Shown here piece by piece: positions 38,196 to 48,854 of a DNA stretch of 53,608 nt. The position numbers were made by a program, and so were the translations under genes. Below the pieces are notes generated by a model, which saw only the letters and a program-made list of their open reading frames with translations, made no database searches and had not been told where the DNA came from. The stretch's first letter is position 1; every line of letters begins with the position of its first letter. The DNA is from a virus: positions 1 through 53,608 of the IMG/VR virus record IMGVR_UViG_3300025646_000055; one strand, written 5' to 3'.

Positions 38196-38642
38196 ATGTG
38201 GTTATATAAAGAAAAAGAAATACAAACAGTTGAAGATTTTGGAGAAAATTCCCCATTTGGGTTTATTTACATAGTTACACATCTTCCTACAGGTAAAAAA
38301 TATTTAGGTAAAAAATCTTTATTTCATACCTTAAATAAAAAATTAGGTAAAAAAGAACTTGCACAACAACCTGTTACAAGGGGTAGAACTAAAACAACAA
38401 AACAAATAATAAAAGAATCTGATTGGAAAACATATTATGGTTCAGAAGAATTTATTAAACAAAAAATCAAAGAAGGTAAACAAGAAGAATTTACTCGTGA
38501 AATAATACAATTAGTATATAGTAAAAAATTACTTACATATTTTGAATGTAAATATCAATTTATGTATGGTGTATTAGAAAACACAGACTGGGTAAATAAT
38601 AATATTTTAGGAAAGTTTTTTAGTAAAGACTTTGATATTTAA
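38196..38642 (+). CDS. GIY-YIG-like endonuclease
   Basis: 148 aa. GFIYIVTHLPTGKKYLGKKS (about 22-41) carries the Y...Y-hydrophobic-G arrangement of GIY-YIG nucleases; SDWKTYYGS (about 74-82) and YFECKYQFMYG (about 115-125), with its Glu, fit the later catalytic elements. It precedes the primase by 24 nt. It may be a homing or Seg-like enzyme or a DNA-repair nuclease of marine T4-like phages. The first G of GIY is replaced by F, so this is a divergent member. Confidence 0.6.
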   Translation: MWLYKEKEIQTVEDFGENSPFGFIYIVTHLPTGKKYLGKKSLFHTLNKKLGKKELAQQPVTRGRTKTTKQIIKESDWKTYYGSEEFIKQKIKEGKQEEFTREIIQLVYSKKLLTYFECKYQFMYGVLENTDWVNNNILGKFFSKDFDI

Positions 38643-40408: not shown

Positions 40409-41374
40409 ATGATATCATTATTAAAATTAATATTAGAGGATAATGGTAATCCTAAAGGTATTATACTAGCTGGAGGTGCTGGTGTTGGAAAATCATATGT
40501 GGTTAGAAATTTATTAGGAGATTTAAATGAAAAAACTGGAATTTTTACCCCTAAAGGTTCAAATTTAAAATTTAAATATATGAACCCTGATGATATTGTA
40601 GAAAAAGAAGGAACTTCTTTGGGGGTAGCTATGGGGAAATTTAAAGAAATATTCCAGGATGCTCAAAATAAAAAAGAAAATATCATTTGGGATACTACCG
40701 CAGCTAATATCAAAAATACAATGGCTCAAATGCCGGGGTATGATAAATTTATGGTTATGGTTTATACTCACCCTATAATTTCGTTGTATCAAAATGCAAA
40801 AAGGGAAAGAACATTACCTATGGAAGCTGCTATTAAAACTTGGGATGGTGTTTACAGTAATATAGAGGAATATAAAAAATTATTTGGAGATAAATTTGTT
40901 TTAATTAAAAATGTTATCCCTGGATATGAAAAACAGGTTCAAGAATTTGATAAAGCTGTAGCTGGTGGTAAGGATAGTTTAAAACAATACTTAGAAAATT
41001 TAATAGCTAACAATCAAGAACAATTTAAATCTTCATTTTCAAAAGAATTTGAATTTGAAAATAAAGAAATTGAACAGGCGTTTAATGATGCTTTACCTGA
41101 AACCTCTTACGATGAGAAAAAAGATAAGAGTATTTTAAAAGGAGTGAAAAAAGAATTTCAAAAAGATTATTTAAAAAAGAATGAAGATCCTGGTTCTAAA
41201 GTATTAGAAAAAAAACTCCAGTCAGCTCGTAATACAAAAGAAAAAAATGAACAAAATTACAATGAAGATTTAGAAGGTATTGTTAATAAATTAACATCTT
41301 CTAAATTTAAAGAAATTACCGAACCTAATTCTGAAGAAGATATCAAATCTAAATTTAATTCTTTTTTAAAATGA
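40409..41374 (+). CDS. P-loop kinase (zeta-toxin-like) with leader
   Basis: 321 aa. A short leader LLKLILE (4-10) is followed by Walker A GGAGVGKS (22-29), then NPDDIVEK and IIWDTTAAN (about 91-99), a layout like zeta-toxin and polynucleotide kinases, and RERTLPMEAAIKTWDGVY, a lid-like helix. The C-terminal third is a Lys/Glu coiled region. The leader ends in L-x-E, as in the other proteins of this cassette, so packaging in the head is possible. The substrate may be a nucleotide, a sugar nucleotide or RNA end. It overlaps the next gene by ATGA. Confidence 0.65.
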   Translation: MISLLKLILEDNGNPKGIILAGGAGVGKSYVVRNLLGDLNEKTGIFTPKGSNLKFKYMNPDDIVEKEGTSLGVAMGKFKEIFQDAQNKKENIIWDTTAANIKNTMAQMPGYDKFMVMVYTHPIISLYQNAKRERTLPMEAAIKTWDGVYSNIEEYKKLFGDKFVLIKNVIPGYEKQVQEFDKAVAGGKDSLKQYLENLIANNQEQFKSSFSKEFEFENKEIEQAFNDALPETSYDEKKDKSILKGVKKEFQKDYLKKNEDPGSKVLEKKLQSARNTKEKNEQNYNEDLEGIVNKLTSSKFKEITEPNSEEDIKSKFNSFLK

Positions 41375-43887
41375 ATGAATTGTCTCAATTTTTAGTAGAT
41401 AGCATTTTAAATGAAGCTGAATCTGATGTAATTACTGCTTTATTTGGGGGAGGTTTTAAACCACCTACTAAAGGCCACTTAGAGGTAGTTTTAAAAGCTA
41501 TTCAAGACAACCCAGAAATAGACCAAGTTTATATAATTGTTGGAGCCGGGGTTAGAAATGGCATTTCACAAGAACAATCTGTTAAAATCTGGGAGAAATA
41601 CAAAAAATTAATCCCTAAAACTACAGAAATTATAGAAGCAGGTTCTCCTATATCTTGGATAAAAGATTATTTAAAAGATCATTCTGAAGATAAAACCTAT
41701 ATTTTAATAGGGGCTAGAGAGGGTGATGAAGAAGATGAAAAAGATTTAGAACAAAGATCCAATTTACTCCAGAAATATGGGGGTGAAATAAAACCTATTT
41801 ATACTAAAGGTGGAATTAGTGGTACAAAAGCAAGAGAAGCTGCTAAACAATCTAAAGAAGCATTCTACCAATTTATCCCTGATCAATTTTCAGATTCAGA
41901 TAAAGAAGAAATTTATAATATTATAATACCAACACTAAATGAGGTAGATGAATTAAAAGAAAATTTAAATGAAAATGCTACATATTCTTCAGATATAGAT
42001 TATAAACAACATATTAAAGAATTAACTAAACATATGTTAGAGAAGGGTATGAATATTACCCCATTACCAAAAGTAATATTTAGAAATGGTGATAGTAATA
42101 ATGCACGTAATTTCTTTGGTAAAACAGCATATTATGACCCAAATACTCAAACTATAGTACTTTATACTGAGGGTCGTCATCCTAAAGATATTGTCCGTTC
42201 ATTTTCCCATGAAATGATACACCATATCCAAAATTTAGAAGGCAGATTAGGTAATATACAGGGTACAAATACAATGGAAGATGACCATTTAGATAAATTA
42301 GAACAAGAAGCTAATTTAAATGGTACAATGACATTTAGAAATTGGACTGATAGCTTAAACGAAAAGAAAAATAAAGATCCATTTGGTATAAATCAATATG
42401 CTCGTGAATTAGCTAAAGGTTTAGAAGAAGAATTAGACGAAGGTCGTAAAAAGAAAAAAGACCCTAAAACCGGTACAGGTAAAAAATTAGATATACCTGG
42501 TGGATTAGAAGAAGGTAAACAAGTTGGTCTTTTATATCATTTTACTAGTACAAATTCATTAGATAAAATATTAAAAGATAATAAAATAAATGGTTCTTTT
42601 ATGTATGAAGTAGGTGATAAAGAATTATATGGTGTTTCTACTACTCGTAATAAAAATTTAAATTATGATCTTCAAAGAAATAATGTAAGAATAACTCTTG
42701 ATGGTAATAAATTATCTAATAATTATAAAATAACTCCTAGAGATTATTTTGAAAGACAATATAATATTCCTGATAACCCCCAAACAATTGATGAAGACGA
42801 GGAAGTTATTTTAACACCTAAAGGATACATTAATAATATAAAAAATTATATTTTAGCTGTTGATAAAGTAAAAGATTTAGAAGAAAGTAGAAAAAAGAAA
42901 AAAGACCCTAAAAAAGGAACAGGTAAAAAACCAGAAGGATCTGGTCGTAAAAATTTTAATGTAGAAAACGTAAGACAAGTTCCTATAAATGAAAATGTTC
43001 CTAGTGCCAAAGATGATGGTAAAGCTACCCCTTATGGTTCAGGGTATGAAAAAGTTAAGGAAGAAATGTTCCAATCTTCAAAAATTGAAAACCAACTAAA
43101 ACAAAAATACTTAGAAGTATTAGAAAAACTTTTCTTATTTGAAAAAGGTAATTATATTGAACTTAATTTAATTAAAATTAAACCCGAATATAAAGGTAAA
43201 GGATGGGCTACTAAAATATTAGATGATTTATCCGAATATGCTCAAGAAAATAATAAAATATTAACATTAACTCCCTCAGATACTTTTGGAGCTTCTAAAT
43301 CAAGATTAGAAAAGTTTTATAAACGTTTTGGTTTTGTTCCTAATAAAGGAAAAAATAAGGATTTTACTACTAAAGATACAATGATTAGACCCTTAAGTGA
43401 AGATACAAGTGAATTATTTACTATCTATTTGGATATGGATGGTGTTATTGCTGATTTTGATAAAAGATTTACTGAACTAGCAGGTATGGGTCCTAGAGAA
43501 TATGAAGATTCTTTTGGTACTGAAAAATTTTGGGATTTTATTGATAATAAACACGGTGTTAAGTTTTGGACTGGTATAGAATGGATGCCTGAAGGTCAAA
43601 AACTATACAATTTTGTTAAACAATTTGACCATAAATTACTATCAGCCCCTTCAAGAAATGATGCTTCTAAAATAGGTAAAAGAATGTGGGCTAAGAAAAA
43701 TACCCCAGGAACTCAATTGATATTAGCTGCAGCTGTTAACAAACAAAATTATGCTGATAAATCTAATATATTAATTGATGATAGAGAAAAAAATATCCAA
43801 CAGTGGAAAGATGCTGGTGGAATAGGTATTTTATTTAAATCTACAGATCAGGTTATTGATGAGTTAAAAAAGATTATGAATTTATGA
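41371..43887 (+). CDS. Five-enzyme polyprotein (NTase-peptidase-ART-GNAT-HAD)
   Basis: 838 aa. Modules: leader 1-15 ending SILNE; cytidylyltransferase-type domain (GGGFKPPTKGH, 26-36; ISGTKAR, 149-155); Zn-peptidase HEMIHH (280-285) with E313 as possible third ligand; ADP-ribosyltransferase-like YHFTSTNSLDKIL (389-401), STTR (423-426), DEDEEVIL (474-481); GNAT acetyltransferase YKGKGWATKIL (607-617); HAD phosphatase YLDMDGVIADFD (686-697) with LIDDRE (801-806). L/I-x-E sites at 189-191, 199-201, 329-331, 355-357, 379-381, 503-505, 539-541 and 675-677 fall at the module boundaries. Lys-rich linkers KKKKDPKTGTGKK and KKKKDPKKGTGKK repeat. Likely cut by the prohead protease and injected; this is inference. 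Confidence 0.7.
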   Translation: MNELSQFLVDSILNEAESDVITALFGGGFKPPTKGHLEVVLKAIQDNPEIDQVYIIVGAGVRNGISQEQSVKIWEKYKKLIPKTTEIIEAGSPISWIKDYLKDHSEDKTYILIGAREGDEEDEKDLEQRSNLLQKYGGEIKPIYTKGGISGTKAREAAKQSKEAFYQFIPDQFSDSDKEEIYNIIIPTLNEVDELKENLNENATYSSDIDYKQHIKELTKHMLEKGMNITPLPKVIFRNGDSNNARNFFGKTAYYDPNTQTIVLYTEGRHPKDIVRSFSHEMIHHIQNLEGRLGNIQGTNTMEDDHLDKLEQEANLNGTMTFRNWTDSLNEKKNKDPFGINQYARELAKGLEEELDEGRKKKKDPKTGTGKKLDIPGGLEEGKQVGLLYHFTSTNSLDKILKDNKINGSFMYEVGDKELYGVSTTRNKNLNYDLQRNNVRITLDGNKLSNNYKITPRDYFERQYNIPDNPQTIDEDEEVILTPKGYINNIKNYILAVDKVKDLEESRKKKKDPKKGTGKKPEGSGRKNFNVENVRQVPINENVPSAKDDGKATPYGSGYEKVKEEMFQSSKIENQLKQKYLEVLEKLFLFEKGNYIELNLIKIKPEYKGKGWATKILDDLSEYAQENNKILTLTPSDTFGASKSRLEKFYKRFGFVPNKGKNKDFTTKDTMIRPLSEDTSELFTIYLDMDGVIADFDKRFTELAGMGPREYEDSFGTEKFWDFIDNKHGVKFWTGIEWMPEGQKLYNFVKQFDHKLLSAPSRNDASKIGKRMWAKKNTPGTQLILAAAVNKQNYADKSNILIDDREKNIQQWKDAGGIGILFKSTDQVIDELKKIMNL

Positions 43888-44663: not shown

Positions 44664-47267
44664 ATGTTTAAAATGAAAGACTTAAAAAAAATACAAGAAT
44701 TCTTTTCTAAACCTATAAACGAAGAAGAAAAATCATTTGCTGATTATTCTAATAATGAGTTAGCAGCATATCTTAAAAATAATCCTACAGATACAAAAGC
44801 ATCATCCGAACTTCATAAACGTTCTCAAAAACTTAAAGCTTTAACTAGAACAGATGAATCAGTAAACGAAGGCATGTATAAAAAAGAAGGATGGCTTGTA
44901 AAATCAAATGATGATGATACTAAATATATTGTTGTCCATACATCTGATGTAGAAAATAAATCAAATAGAATTAGTGATATTTATAAAGATAAAAAACTAG
45001 CTATCAAAAGAGCAGCTTTTCTAAACAAAAAATTAAGAGGATTGGATGAATCTATACTAAGTGAAAAGAAACCAAGTAAAATAGTTTGGGATACTAAAAA
45101 AATTTCTGCTGCAAAAAGAATCAATGTTAGAAAGTGGTACATGAAAACCTATCCTATCGATGAACTTGGCGGTGAAATAAATCAAAAACTTACACTATGG
45201 GATGTTTACACTTACTTATCACAGGGGTATGATGTATATAAAGTTATCGGTGTATCTGATAGTGTTATAAGAGAAAGAGTATTTGAAAAACTATCTAAGG
45301 TTCTTGATGTTGATTACGATACTATTTACAATATGTTTGAATCAGTAAATGAAGCTCAGTTTAAAGACTTACAAATAGGAGATGAATTTTTAAGATTTGG
45401 TAAAAATGGCCAACTTTGGGTAAAAACATCAGACAGGCAAGCCAAATTTGTGAAAAATGTGGGTAAAAAAACAGCTAAATATAACAAAAGTTCGGGTTCA
45501 TTAGAGGTTTTTCCACCAACGATGGATATAACCTTAGAATCAGTAAACGAGGCAACCCCTATTCAAAAGATTTTTCGTAAGATAGGTTGGGGTGGTGATT
45601 GGTGGACTCCACAAGATTATGCAAAACAGATAAAAAATTTACCTGATAACACTTTAAAAATTTGGTATAACTCTGCTAAATCTAATAAAGGTATTCCAAA
45701 TACTCCACTAGCATTTCAACAAAAATTAACAAAGATTGAAATGGAAAAGAGAGGTCTTTTAGAATCAGTATATGAAAATAATCTAGGACATGCTGAAGTA
45801 AGAAAAGTAGAAAAAAATTTATCTCTTGCTCAAAAAGAAGAGTTATCTAAATTAATAAAATCTGGAAAGATTAAAACAAGTGATGATCTTAAAAATTGGC
45901 TACCATCCATAAAAGAATCAATAAATGAACAAGAATACGCTAAACCATCTATCAGTGATTACAAAGTAGGTGATATTCTTAAATTTAAAGATGGAGAAGA
46001 ATGGTTAGTTGTTAAACCTGGAATGAGGGGATCTTCTAATCGAAGAAATTCTGATGAAATTACCATCAAACCTTATAATAAACTAGCAAAAGATAGAAAC
46101 GTTAGTTTAGCTATTGATGCTACTATATCATATCTAAATGATGTAGTTGATAAGATCATTAAAAAATCAGCTGATAATGTTAATGAAGCAATTATAAGTA
46201 ATAATCTAGATAAAATGGTCGACCTAGTTGTAGAAGGTGCTGAACCTAAGAATGTACTAGAAACTAAAGAAGAAGATCTTCAACTAAAAAATCTCCATTC
46301 TAAAATAGAAAAATATTATGGTAGAAAATTAGAACCTAGCCAAATTAATACACTCCAGGGTAAAGATAAGGTAATATCTAATTTATTATCACAATATCGA
46401 AAATTATCTAGAAGTTTAAACGAACAAGAAGAAGATCCAATCGATATCATCACAATGGATGTTCCATTATTTATCCGTGTTTTAGAATATGCTAGAGAAG
46501 ATGCCCAAGCAGATATGGATTTACACGATTTAACTGAAAAAGCAATTGCCGCTACTAAACAACAAGGTATACTCCAGATGGACGATTATGATATGTTAGT
46601 TGGTGAATTAGAGCAATTAAATGAAGAATTTCTTAACCCAGGTAAAAGACCTATTATAACAAATAAACAAGGTGAAAAATTTGTTTTACAAGGATTTACA
46701 ATTGGGGGATATTATTTAATTCCATATGATGGTTATAAATATTGGGAGCATTTTAGAGTACCTAAAGAACAATGGATACCAGAAAAATCAATTAATTGGG
46801 GTGATTATAATTTTACTCAACAACAATTTGAAAAACTTAAGGCTTTTAACAGTGAGAAAGAAAAAGAAGTAAATAAAAAATTTCAAGATATGAATGAAAT
46901 CCAATCTTTAGAAGATCAAGCTAAAGTTTATTGGATGCAACAATTAAAAGCTGGTAAAATTGATAAACTACCTAAAGATCCTAAAGAAGCATTTTTAATC
47001 CAAATGATGAAAGATCAAATAGATCACGATGAAGAAACTTTACGTCGTGAACGTGGTTTAGAAGAAAAAATTCGTGAAATCATTGAAACTATTAAATTAG
47101 GTCAAAATTTAAATGAATCTACACTTTGTAAAAGAGGTCAGGACTACATTAAAGCAAGAAAAGCTGCCGGAGAAAAATCATCAGCTTATCTTTCAGGTCG
47201 TGCAGTAAAAGTATGTAAAGGTGATATTAAATTTAAAGGTAAAAAACAAAAAGATTTTAAAGGATAA
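44664..47267 (+). CDS. Putative internal-head polyprotein with V/I/L-N-E repeats
   Basis: 867 aa. Leader KKIQEFFSKPINE (8-20), then repeated candidate cleavage sites: SVNE (66-69), SVNE (227-230), SVNE (293-296), SINE (419-422), NVNE (505-508), SLNE (584-587), QLNE (651-654) and NLNE (815-818), several followed by Gly or Ala. Pieces between sites have different folds: beta barrels such as YKVGDILKFKDGEEWLVV (about 433-450), helical units, and a C-terminal CKRGQDYIKARKAAG domain seen in marine phage proteins. ATG 44673 is an alternative start. Function: likely several small packaged proteins made as one chain. Confidence 0.6.
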   Translation: MFKMKDLKKIQEFFSKPINEEEKSFADYSNNELAAYLKNNPTDTKASSELHKRSQKLKALTRTDESVNEGMYKKEGWLVKSNDDDTKYIVVHTSDVENKSNRISDIYKDKKLAIKRAAFLNKKLRGLDESILSEKKPSKIVWDTKKISAAKRINVRKWYMKTYPIDELGGEINQKLTLWDVYTYLSQGYDVYKVIGVSDSVIRERVFEKLSKVLDVDYDTIYNMFESVNEAQFKDLQIGDEFLRFGKNGQLWVKTSDRQAKFVKNVGKKTAKYNKSSGSLEVFPPTMDITLESVNEATPIQKIFRKIGWGGDWWTPQDYAKQIKNLPDNTLKIWYNSAKSNKGIPNTPLAFQQKLTKIEMEKRGLLESVYENNLGHAEVRKVEKNLSLAQKEELSKLIKSGKIKTSDDLKNWLPSIKESINEQEYAKPSISDYKVGDILKFKDGEEWLVVKPGMRGSSNRRNSDEITIKPYNKLAKDRNVSLAIDATISYLNDVVDKIIKKSADNVNEAIISNNLDKMVDLVVEGAEPKNVLETKEEDLQLKNLHSKIEKYYGRKLEPSQINTLQGKDKVISNLLSQYRKLSRSLNEQEEDPIDIITMDVPLFIRVLEYAREDAQADMDLHDLTEKAIAATKQQGILQMDDYDMLVGELEQLNEEFLNPGKRPIITNKQGEKFVLQGFTIGGYYLIPYDGYKYWEHFRVPKEQWIPEKSINWGDYNFTQQQFEKLKAFNSEKEKEVNKKFQDMNEIQSLEDQAKVYWMQQLKAGKIDKLPKDPKEAFLIQMMKDQIDHDEETLRRERGLEEKIREIIETIKLGQNLNESTLCKRGQDYIKARKAAGEKSSAYLSGRAVKVCKGDIKFKGKKQKDFKG

Positions 47268-47707
47268 TGAAGGATTTTGATTTAAAAAAATACCTAAAAG
47301 AAGGTAAATTATTTGAAGCTATAATGGCTTGTCCTTTACCTACTCAAGATTTAGAACTTAACACTAAAAATAGAGATTCTGCTATTAAAGCTGACTATAT
47401 TAAATATGGTCCTTTAAATGTTGATGAACCAGGAGATTATTGGGAAGAATTAGCAGAACACTGGGATACAACTGTTGAAGCTGCTAAACAATCACTTTGT
47501 GCCAATTGTGCTGCTTTCGATATTTCTCCTAGAATGGATGATTGTATGCCTGGTCCTTTACAAGATAAAGATGGTAGATTAGGATATTGTTGGATGCATA
47601 GTTTTAAATGCCATTCAGCACGTACTTGTAGAACTTGGGCTAAAGGAGGTCCTATTACTGAAGATAAAATATCTTATGAGTGGCAAGAACGTAAAGGAGA
47701 AGAATAA
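47267..47707 (+). CDS. Cys-rich protein with capsid-targeting-like leader
   Basis: 146 aa. The leader FDLKKYLKEGKLFEA (3-17) resembles T4 capsid-targeting peptides with L-F-E before Ala. The C-terminal half has CANCAAFD, C-x-P-G, GYCWMHSFKCHSARTCRTW: seven or more ordered Cys/His that could hold zinc or an Fe-S cluster. The start overlaps the previous stop by one base. Metal type and function unknown. Confidence 0.6.
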   Translation: MKDFDLKKYLKEGKLFEAIMACPLPTQDLELNTKNRDSAIKADYIKYGPLNVDEPGDYWEELAEHWDTTVEAAKQSLCANCAAFDISPRMDDCMPGPLQDKDGRLGYCWMHSFKCHSARTCRTWAKGGPITEDKISYEWQERKGEE

Positions 47708-48011: not shown

Positions 48012-48854
48012 ATGGACAACTTTGATTTTAAAAAATACTTAGCTGAAAGCAAATTGCATGAGAACATGGCTGTAGAAATAACAGCAAAAATTGCTCAAAA
48101 AATAGCAGATGCTTTTACAGCTGATGATGATCTAGACCTTAAATATGTTGTAAATCCTCGTATTGACGCAGGTTCATTCGATCTTGATGTTGAAGCAGGT
48201 CCTAACACCCCTGGTGAAGATTCACTTGGTCAAGATATCGATAACTACCTTGGCGAATTCGCAGGTGGTTCTTTCTATATTAAAGACGGAGTAGTTTATA
48301 ATGCTGCTATGCGTAATGCTCCGGTTGCCAATGTAACCCCAGAAGGTGAAGTTGAAATGATCTCAGCTGCAGATTCAAGAGCAGCCATTGATTCACAAGA
48401 TGATATCCCAGCAATTGATAGAATGTATAACTCTGATGCTTGGGTGCAAGCTCAAAGAGATGCAATGGGAGAATCTAAAGAAGAAAAAAAATCAAATAAA
48501 ATGAAAAAATCCGAATTAAAAGAAATGATCCGCCAAGCAATGCTTGCTGAGACTAATTCTATAAAAGAACAAGAAGAAGAAGTAGCTGATGAAATTGAAA
48601 TTGAAGGTGAAGAAGAAACAACTGAAGAACCTGAAATAAAAGATGGAGAAGATACTCCTGAATTAGGTGGTAGTAACCAAAAAATCTTAAATGATTTAGA
48701 AGCAGCTTTAGAAGGTGCCAAACAAATGGGAGATGAAAAACTTGTAAATCAAATAGGTAATACAATTACATTTTTTACTCGTCAATATATTGTAAAAGAA
48801 GAAGATCTATTTGAAATAAAAAGAATGAAACGATTAGCTGGAATTTTAAAATAA
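48012..48854 (+). CDS. Acidic internal/scaffold-like protein
   Basis: 280 aa. The leader FDFKKYLAESKLHE (4-17) resembles capsid-targeting peptides, and a second one, KKSELKEMIRQAMLAE (about 164-179), lies in the middle, before a long acidic stretch (EEEVADEIEIEGEEETTEE). It ends in basic EIKRMKRLAGILK. This alternation of leader, globular part, leader and acidic tail would suit a prohead-core or internal protein trimmed during maturation. It has its own late promoter. Confidence 0.55.
   Translation: MDNFDFKKYLAESKLHENMAVEITAKIAQKIADAFTADDDLDLKYVVNPRIDAGSFDLDVEAGPNTPGEDSLGQDIDNYLGEFAGGSFYIKDGVVYNAAMRNAPVANVTPEGEVEMISAADSRAAIDSQDDIPAIDRMYNSDAWVQAQRDAMGESKEEKKSNKMKKSELKEMIRQAMLAETNSIKEQEEEVADEIEIEGEEETTEEPEIKDGEDTPELGGSNQKILNDLEAALEGAKQMGDEKLVNQIGNTITFFTRQYIVKEEDLFEIKRMKRLAGILK

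Follow-up and report, generated by a model that had tools for sequence, protein, structure and literature searches.

A candidate capsid cargo polyprotein with exchangeable enzyme modules and prohead-protease-type sites in a T4-like phage

Why a single phage gene should string together several unrelated enzyme modules, with a short motif of the kind cut by the T4 prohead protease at the junctions, is the question raised by one open reading frame in a 53,608-nucleotide stretch of viral DNA (the window). The frame (41371-43887, + strand) is uninterrupted in the translation of the window, starts with ATG and encodes 838 amino acids; the phage is T4-like and uncultured, and its host probably belongs to Bacteroidota. 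A sequence-only reading had described an 838-aa frame with several enzyme modules; the ORF is real, and most of its modules are matched by profile and fold searches, several of them weakly. In T4, gp21 cleaves after L/I-X-E, and Alt and the internal proteins (IPs) are ejected (PMC9026906). On balance, the 838-aa protein is probably a capsid cargo polyprotein that the prohead protease would split into separate enzymes, probably for injection. We infer its packaging, cleavage, injection and host targets by analogy, and a literature search found no virion proteomics on the polyprotein.

The chain, all of it on the + strand, begins with a leader resembling a capsid-targeting sequence (residues 1-15, 41371..41415; MNELSQFLVDSILNE), ending SILNE/A at Glu 15, where the slash marks, here and below, the putative cut. 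It is followed by a nucleotidyltransferase module (residues 16-191, 41416..41943, end IPTLNE/) with a PPAT/NadD-like fold, in which the cytidylyltransferase-like domain spans residues 24-156 and has a weak Pfam match (CTP_transf_like, E 0.005). The linker VDELKENLNE/ (residues 192-201, 41944..41973), of low pLDDT and with an invariant E201, leads to a metallopeptidase-like module, MP1 (residues 202-331, 41974..42363, end DSLNE/), which has a confident fold, a weak DUF6782 match and the motif HEMIHH at residues 280-285; H280, E281, H284, H285, E311 and E313 are invariant. A linker peptide (residues 332-357, 42364..42441; KKNKDPFGINQYARELAKGLEE/ELDE/) recurs in relatives, being present in 40/44 leader-bearing and 8/9 leaderless members. 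Its part at 42364-42429, KDPFGxNxYARELAxGLEE, is an amphipathic helix with an [LIV]xE end, repeated between modules, and might serve as an internal targeting peptide. The basic linker beyond it (residues 358-381, 42442..42513, end GGLEE/) holds the first KKKKDPKTGTGKK copy and begins a longer module in relatives.

The second half of the protein starts with an ART-like module, GKQVGLLYHFT... (residues 382-505, 42514..42885, end KDLEE/), which is matched by Tox-ART-HYD1 in family members. The next linker (residues 506-541, 42886..42993, end PINE/) carries the second copy, KKKKDPKKGTGKK, and, judged against the relative L001, seems to be what is left of a longer module after truncation. The two copies of KKKKDPK(T/K)GTGKK that had been reported were found at residues 360-372 and 508-520. 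The GNAT module (residues 542-677, 42994..43401, end RPLSE/) matches Acetyltransf_7 at residues 596-656 (E 5e-6, 27.2 bits, with a Pfam cut-off of 27) and phrog_10691, and has 88 relatives among viral contigs. The last module, a HAD 5'-deoxynucleotidase (residues 678-838 and the stop codon, 43402..43887), has a HAD fold and matches phrog_2643 at residues 683-835 (E 3.6e-24, PHROG profile search).

The sites listed earlier, at Glu 15, 191, 201, 331, 357, 381, 505, 541 and 677, are all present and each is [LI]xE. Further [LI]xE sites occur within folded modules (75, 89, 217, 831), in the ART/GNAT region (475, 591, 622) and in linkers (197, 353). Against residue shuffles, the protein has 21 [LIV]xE where 14.3 are expected (p 0.03) and 5 [LIV]NE where 1.0 is expected (p 0.003). 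The [LIV]NE excess is restricted to the gene block from 40409 on, where the window's ORFs have 18 against 4.5 expected and the remaining ORFs 8 against 9.4, and for 41371-43887 alone it is modest. Site counts from one sequence were set aside as proof, being weak evidence; the real support is comparative.

Structure prediction places the first sites between folds. In the full-length AlphaFold model, confident folds cover residues 21-186, 206-330 and 682-836, with a pLDDT of about 94 for the HAD module; the leader is a predicted helix at residues 2-13, and pLDDT falls below 50 at 14-16 and across 189-205. Burial of sites inside folds had been named as counting against the proposal; sites 15, 191 and 201 fall in linkers of low confidence that separate confident folds. 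The model carries no information on residues 362-680, for which alignment depth is lacking, and burial of the sites between 381 and 677 is beyond its reach. Sites 75, 89, 217 and 831 lie within predicted folds, either inside secondary-structure elements or at their margins, and are probably not cut; since some [LI]xE sites lie within folds, the motif alone defines no cut. In Foldseek searches the first module matched structures of PPAT and NadD, with a TM to target of about 0.7, and the last matched HAD enzymes in the PDB. Modelled alone, the ART-like module reached a pLDDT of 85 and had no significant PDB fold match, the best being Agrobacterium 6b (probability 0.54). A fragment-based alignment was also tried as folding input and discarded because it misplaced HAD segments.

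The comparative material came from IMG/VR, where 264 relatives were found and 80 loci retained, giving 57 non-redundant proteins including that of the window. Complete members reach 1322 aa. The nucleotidyltransferase comes first, MP1 is present and HAD is mostly last, while the modules between them vary and recur beside unrelated neighbours across the 57 members. Among the profiles matched by other members are Fe/Mn superoxide dismutase, plastocyanin, GIY-YIG, ART-PolyVal and a double zinc ribbon; in one of them (L003:3071-6829), superoxide dismutase-like (Fe/Mn) and plastocyanin-like modules lie inside the polyprotein, which suggests redox functions among the putative cargo. L001 is 91% identical to the window's protein in the first module and 97% identical in the GNAT-HAD part, and the two differ in the middle modules. 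One module junction of the window looks, from its sequence, like an internal deletion and not an exchange at a site. Of the five injected effectors proposed in the sequence-only reading, the fixed set did not hold, since the window is one state of a mosaic with exchangeable modules. In-silico digestion followed by single-linkage clustering was abandoned, as the majority of fragments collapsed into a single family and modules could not usefully be counted.

The site at the module starts is sharply defined. With the starts set by sequence inside the modules, the preceding residue is Glu in all 77 distinct contexts from the 57 members, and position -3 is L in 58, I in 10, V in 7 and M in 2, with positions -4 to -8 variable. 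The proposed placement of sites at module junctions is therefore borne out in the relatives, with [LIVM]xE directly before the module start in 77/77 contexts, and specific, putative protease sites between modules are what a polyprotein should have. By module, [LIV]xE precedes the start of MP1 in 43/43 cases, of the GRYD zincin in 22/22 and of KKKKDPK in 9/9; before the zinc ribbon it is exact in 9/13 and offset by one residue in the other four. In the alignment, column 191 is Glu in 100% of 39 sequences and column 201 in 43/43 aligned, and columns 189 and 199 hold solely I, L or V. BLAST homology breakpoints fall within 3 residues of an [LIV]xE 365 times, against 188 (SD 12) with circularly shifted sites, a gap that must not serve as a probability because breakpoints are not independent. 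At the level of sequence, the case for protease-type sites where modules begin is strong.

An alternative is that the chain stays uncut as a fused multi-enzyme protein in which [LIV]xE is just a conserved linker or a recombination junction; junction sequences could be inherited together with the modules. This is unlikely, given that positions -1 and -3 are fixed while -2 and everything upstream vary, that [LIV]xD and [LIV]xK show no enrichment in the same breakpoint test, and that ART modules encoded as single genes retain the site after a short leader, where a junction is not needed.

These ART genes extend the comparison beyond the family. Tox-ART-HYD1 matches 7/17 aligned ART-like members (best E 1e-6), and the window copy (382-505) has no significant profile match on its own, Tox-ART-HYD1 included. 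Other phages encode the ART-like module either by itself, in a gene whose leader has roughly 8 to 30 residues, or within long proteins. In 21/22 contexts, single-gene or internal, [LIV]xE directly precedes it, and the next residue is almost always A, G or S. A T4-type gp23 is encoded by four large contigs that have single leader-bearing ART genes, and two of these contigs show a tandem array of several leader-bearing genes beside the gp23 gene. On the - strand of the T4-like contigs L200 and L201, ART-like and other genes with leaders adjoin gp23 in tandem, and PF03420 detected no prohead protease there.

The leaders themselves are compatible with a targeting role. [LIVMF]xE is found at residues 6-22 in 44/44 long leader-bearing members. 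The earlier description of the leader thus stands as regards SILNE/A and these relatives, and it does not extend to 9/57 non-redundant members, which are leaderless; no cryptic or frameshifted leader was found upstream of those nine, other frames included. Detached HAD genes have short leaders in several relatives and none in L002 or L013. Leaders of the MDNFDLKKYLAE type occur on 25 ORFs, the bodies of which sort into 19 groups with no similarity detected between them at E 0.01; a common leader on unrelated bodies is the picture expected of a targeting signal, and a comparable argument has been made for T4 capsid-targeting sequences (PMC9026906). Other leader sequences named in the analysis are MNQLTKFLVDGILNE and MDNFDLKKYLAEGRLLKE, the latter nearly identical on tandem genes with unrelated bodies at L093:5062-8080.

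Leaders and sites also mark neighbouring genes of the window. Upstream, a P-loop/Zeta-toxin-like kinase (40409..41374, + strand; Zeta_toxin E 2.6e-6) has the short leader MISLLKLILE/, and its homologue in L030 has a different leader that also ends [LIV]xE/. Downstream, an 867-aa protein (44664..47267, + strand) is rich in sites, including ESVNE/A and ESINE/Q, with 9 [LIV]NE against 0.9 expected and 27 [LIV]xE against 15.4; these motif counts suggest that it is possibly a second processed polyprotein. In the Flavobacterium phage immuto, immuto35A_191 resembles it in site content and position. The ORF at 47267..47707 (+ strand) has the leader MKDFDLKKYLKE/GKLFE/A and is among the 25 ORFs mentioned above, and the ORF at 48012..48854 (+ strand) has a leader of the same type, MDNFDFKKYLAE/SKLHE/N, as found by inspecting the translation by eye. 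Elsewhere in the window, the PHROG label 'NAD synthetase' for 38196-38642 looks doubtful, and homing-endonuclease families match too. Upstream of the terminase in another contig (L090:4494-5448), a stand-alone cytidylyltransferase-like gene adjoins one for a P-loop kinase-like protein, and related pairs occur in L092 and L095.

The protease that would act on these sites was sought through PF03420, the gp21-family profile, which is above cut-off in 6/21 polyprotein contigs, including the complete phage immuto; most of the other polyprotein contigs are fragments. In G002 and G003, PF03420 and gp23 (PF07068) are found in the same polyprotein-bearing contig, and gp21 is not in the 53.6-kb window, itself a fragment. 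PF03420 was rejected as a marker that tells contigs with sites from contigs lacking them, because contigs that encode GNAT in polyvalent-type proteins are often positive too, and three T4-like contigs with leader-bearing ART genes are negative. The gp22 and gp23 of polyprotein contigs bear [LIV]xE as well, gp23 leaders included, and two conserved [LIV]xE sites lie in the gp23 region that aligns close to where mature T4 gp23 begins.

Processing by the MP1 module itself, of the sort proposed for P1 DdrB and occurring either ahead of packaging or within the host, would instead make the chain a polyvalent-type protein. Members running from start to stop have MP1 with its HExxH intact, and autoproteolysis has been put forward for polyvalent proteins (PMC5512222). 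The module-start logo, however, equals the published specificity of T4 gp21, which argues against MP1 as the processing enzyme, and the same sites occur in proteins without MP1, namely gp22, gp23 and single ART genes. MP1 is made less likely in this role by three T4-like contigs with leader-bearing ART genes that have no MP1 match, and also none to PF03420 or Peptidase_S78. Self-processing is thus unlikely.

A third alternative accepts gp21 cleavage and changes the fate of the products: a core or scaffold-like protein could be digested and leave the head as peptides, like T4 gp22, gp67 and gp68. The many sites in the chain fit this, and T4 core proteins are cut into several fragments, which mostly exit the head (PMC9026906). 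It is nevertheless highly improbable, since the modules bear enzyme signatures very different in kind, superoxide dismutase, GIY-YIG and ART-PolyVal among them, and the junction sites separate compact predicted folds of 120-170 residues.

Taken as a capsid cargo polyprotein, the protein can be set beside several known systems. The closest cultured homologue, and the one close cultured relative found by tblastn of phage records, is in Flavobacterium phage vB_FspM_immuto (host strain LMO8), where one gene of the pair immuto35A_182/_183 joins the nucleotidyltransferase to MP1 and a second zincin, and HAD is in the next. These adjacent genes are upstream of the terminase, gp20, prohead protease (immuto35A_200) and gp23 genes. 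They differ in that HAD has a gene and a short leader to itself, and in that a large N-terminal domain ending TLAE/A stands in the leader's place. T4 Alt and IPI-III likewise have a short N-terminal leader ending (L/I)-x-E, of gp21-type specificity, with diverse bodies after the conserved leader and an ART in the cargo, to which the ART-like module here may correspond (PMC9026906, PMC3012670); each T4 ejection protein is a single one trimmed at its ends, whereas here several enzyme modules share a chain with sites between them. The inner-head proteins of phiKZ and SPN3US are another likeness, as gp175/gp245 cut several head and ejection proteins after x-x-E; several sites per propeptide serve there to remove propeptides, and release of multiple retained enzymes from one chain is not described (PMC5694885).

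Polyvalent proteins, including P1 DarB and DdrB, are likewise multidomain phage proteins, with ART, GNAT and metallopeptidase domains to which the ART-like, GNAT and metallopeptidase-like modules here may correspond, but an internal metallopeptidase is proposed as their processor and the part of the source consulted describes no prohead-protease sites at module starts (Iyer et al. 2017, PMC5512222). Profile searches found several unrelated conflict-type domains in one polypeptide here too, as is characteristic of polyvalent proteins, and GNAT relatives were found in giant phage proteins. The protein would act as a polyprotein counterpart of the T4 ejection proteins, and its repertoire of domains recalls that of polyvalent proteins.

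In the proposed mechanism, the short N-terminal helix, acting like a T4 capsid-targeting sequence, would bring the chain into the prohead core, where a gp21-type protease would cut after (L/I/V)-x-E in the linkers and free the nucleotidyltransferase, metallopeptidase, ART-like, GNAT and HAD modules as separate proteins. The freed modules would remain in the head and enter the host along with the DNA, and module exchange at the linkers would alter the cargo between strains. We lean towards regarding the gene as an exchangeable cargo platform of T4-like phages of this group, in which site-bounded modules are recombined in one gene and one capsid-targeting event delivers varying separate enzymes.

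Cleavage of a polyprotein by the virus's own protease is typical of RNA viruses. A search of open-access papers found none on a tailed phage whose prohead protease cuts a cargo polyprotein into several enzymes that are retained; if correct, the present reading would mean that tailed phages can use a polyprotein to supply injected effectors. The cultured phage immuto makes the idea directly testable. [LIV]xE at module starts together with common leaders may provide a simple rule for predicting packaged cargo from sequence, and, if the reading is true, it would explain how many uncharacterised proteins of marine T4-like phages reach the host.
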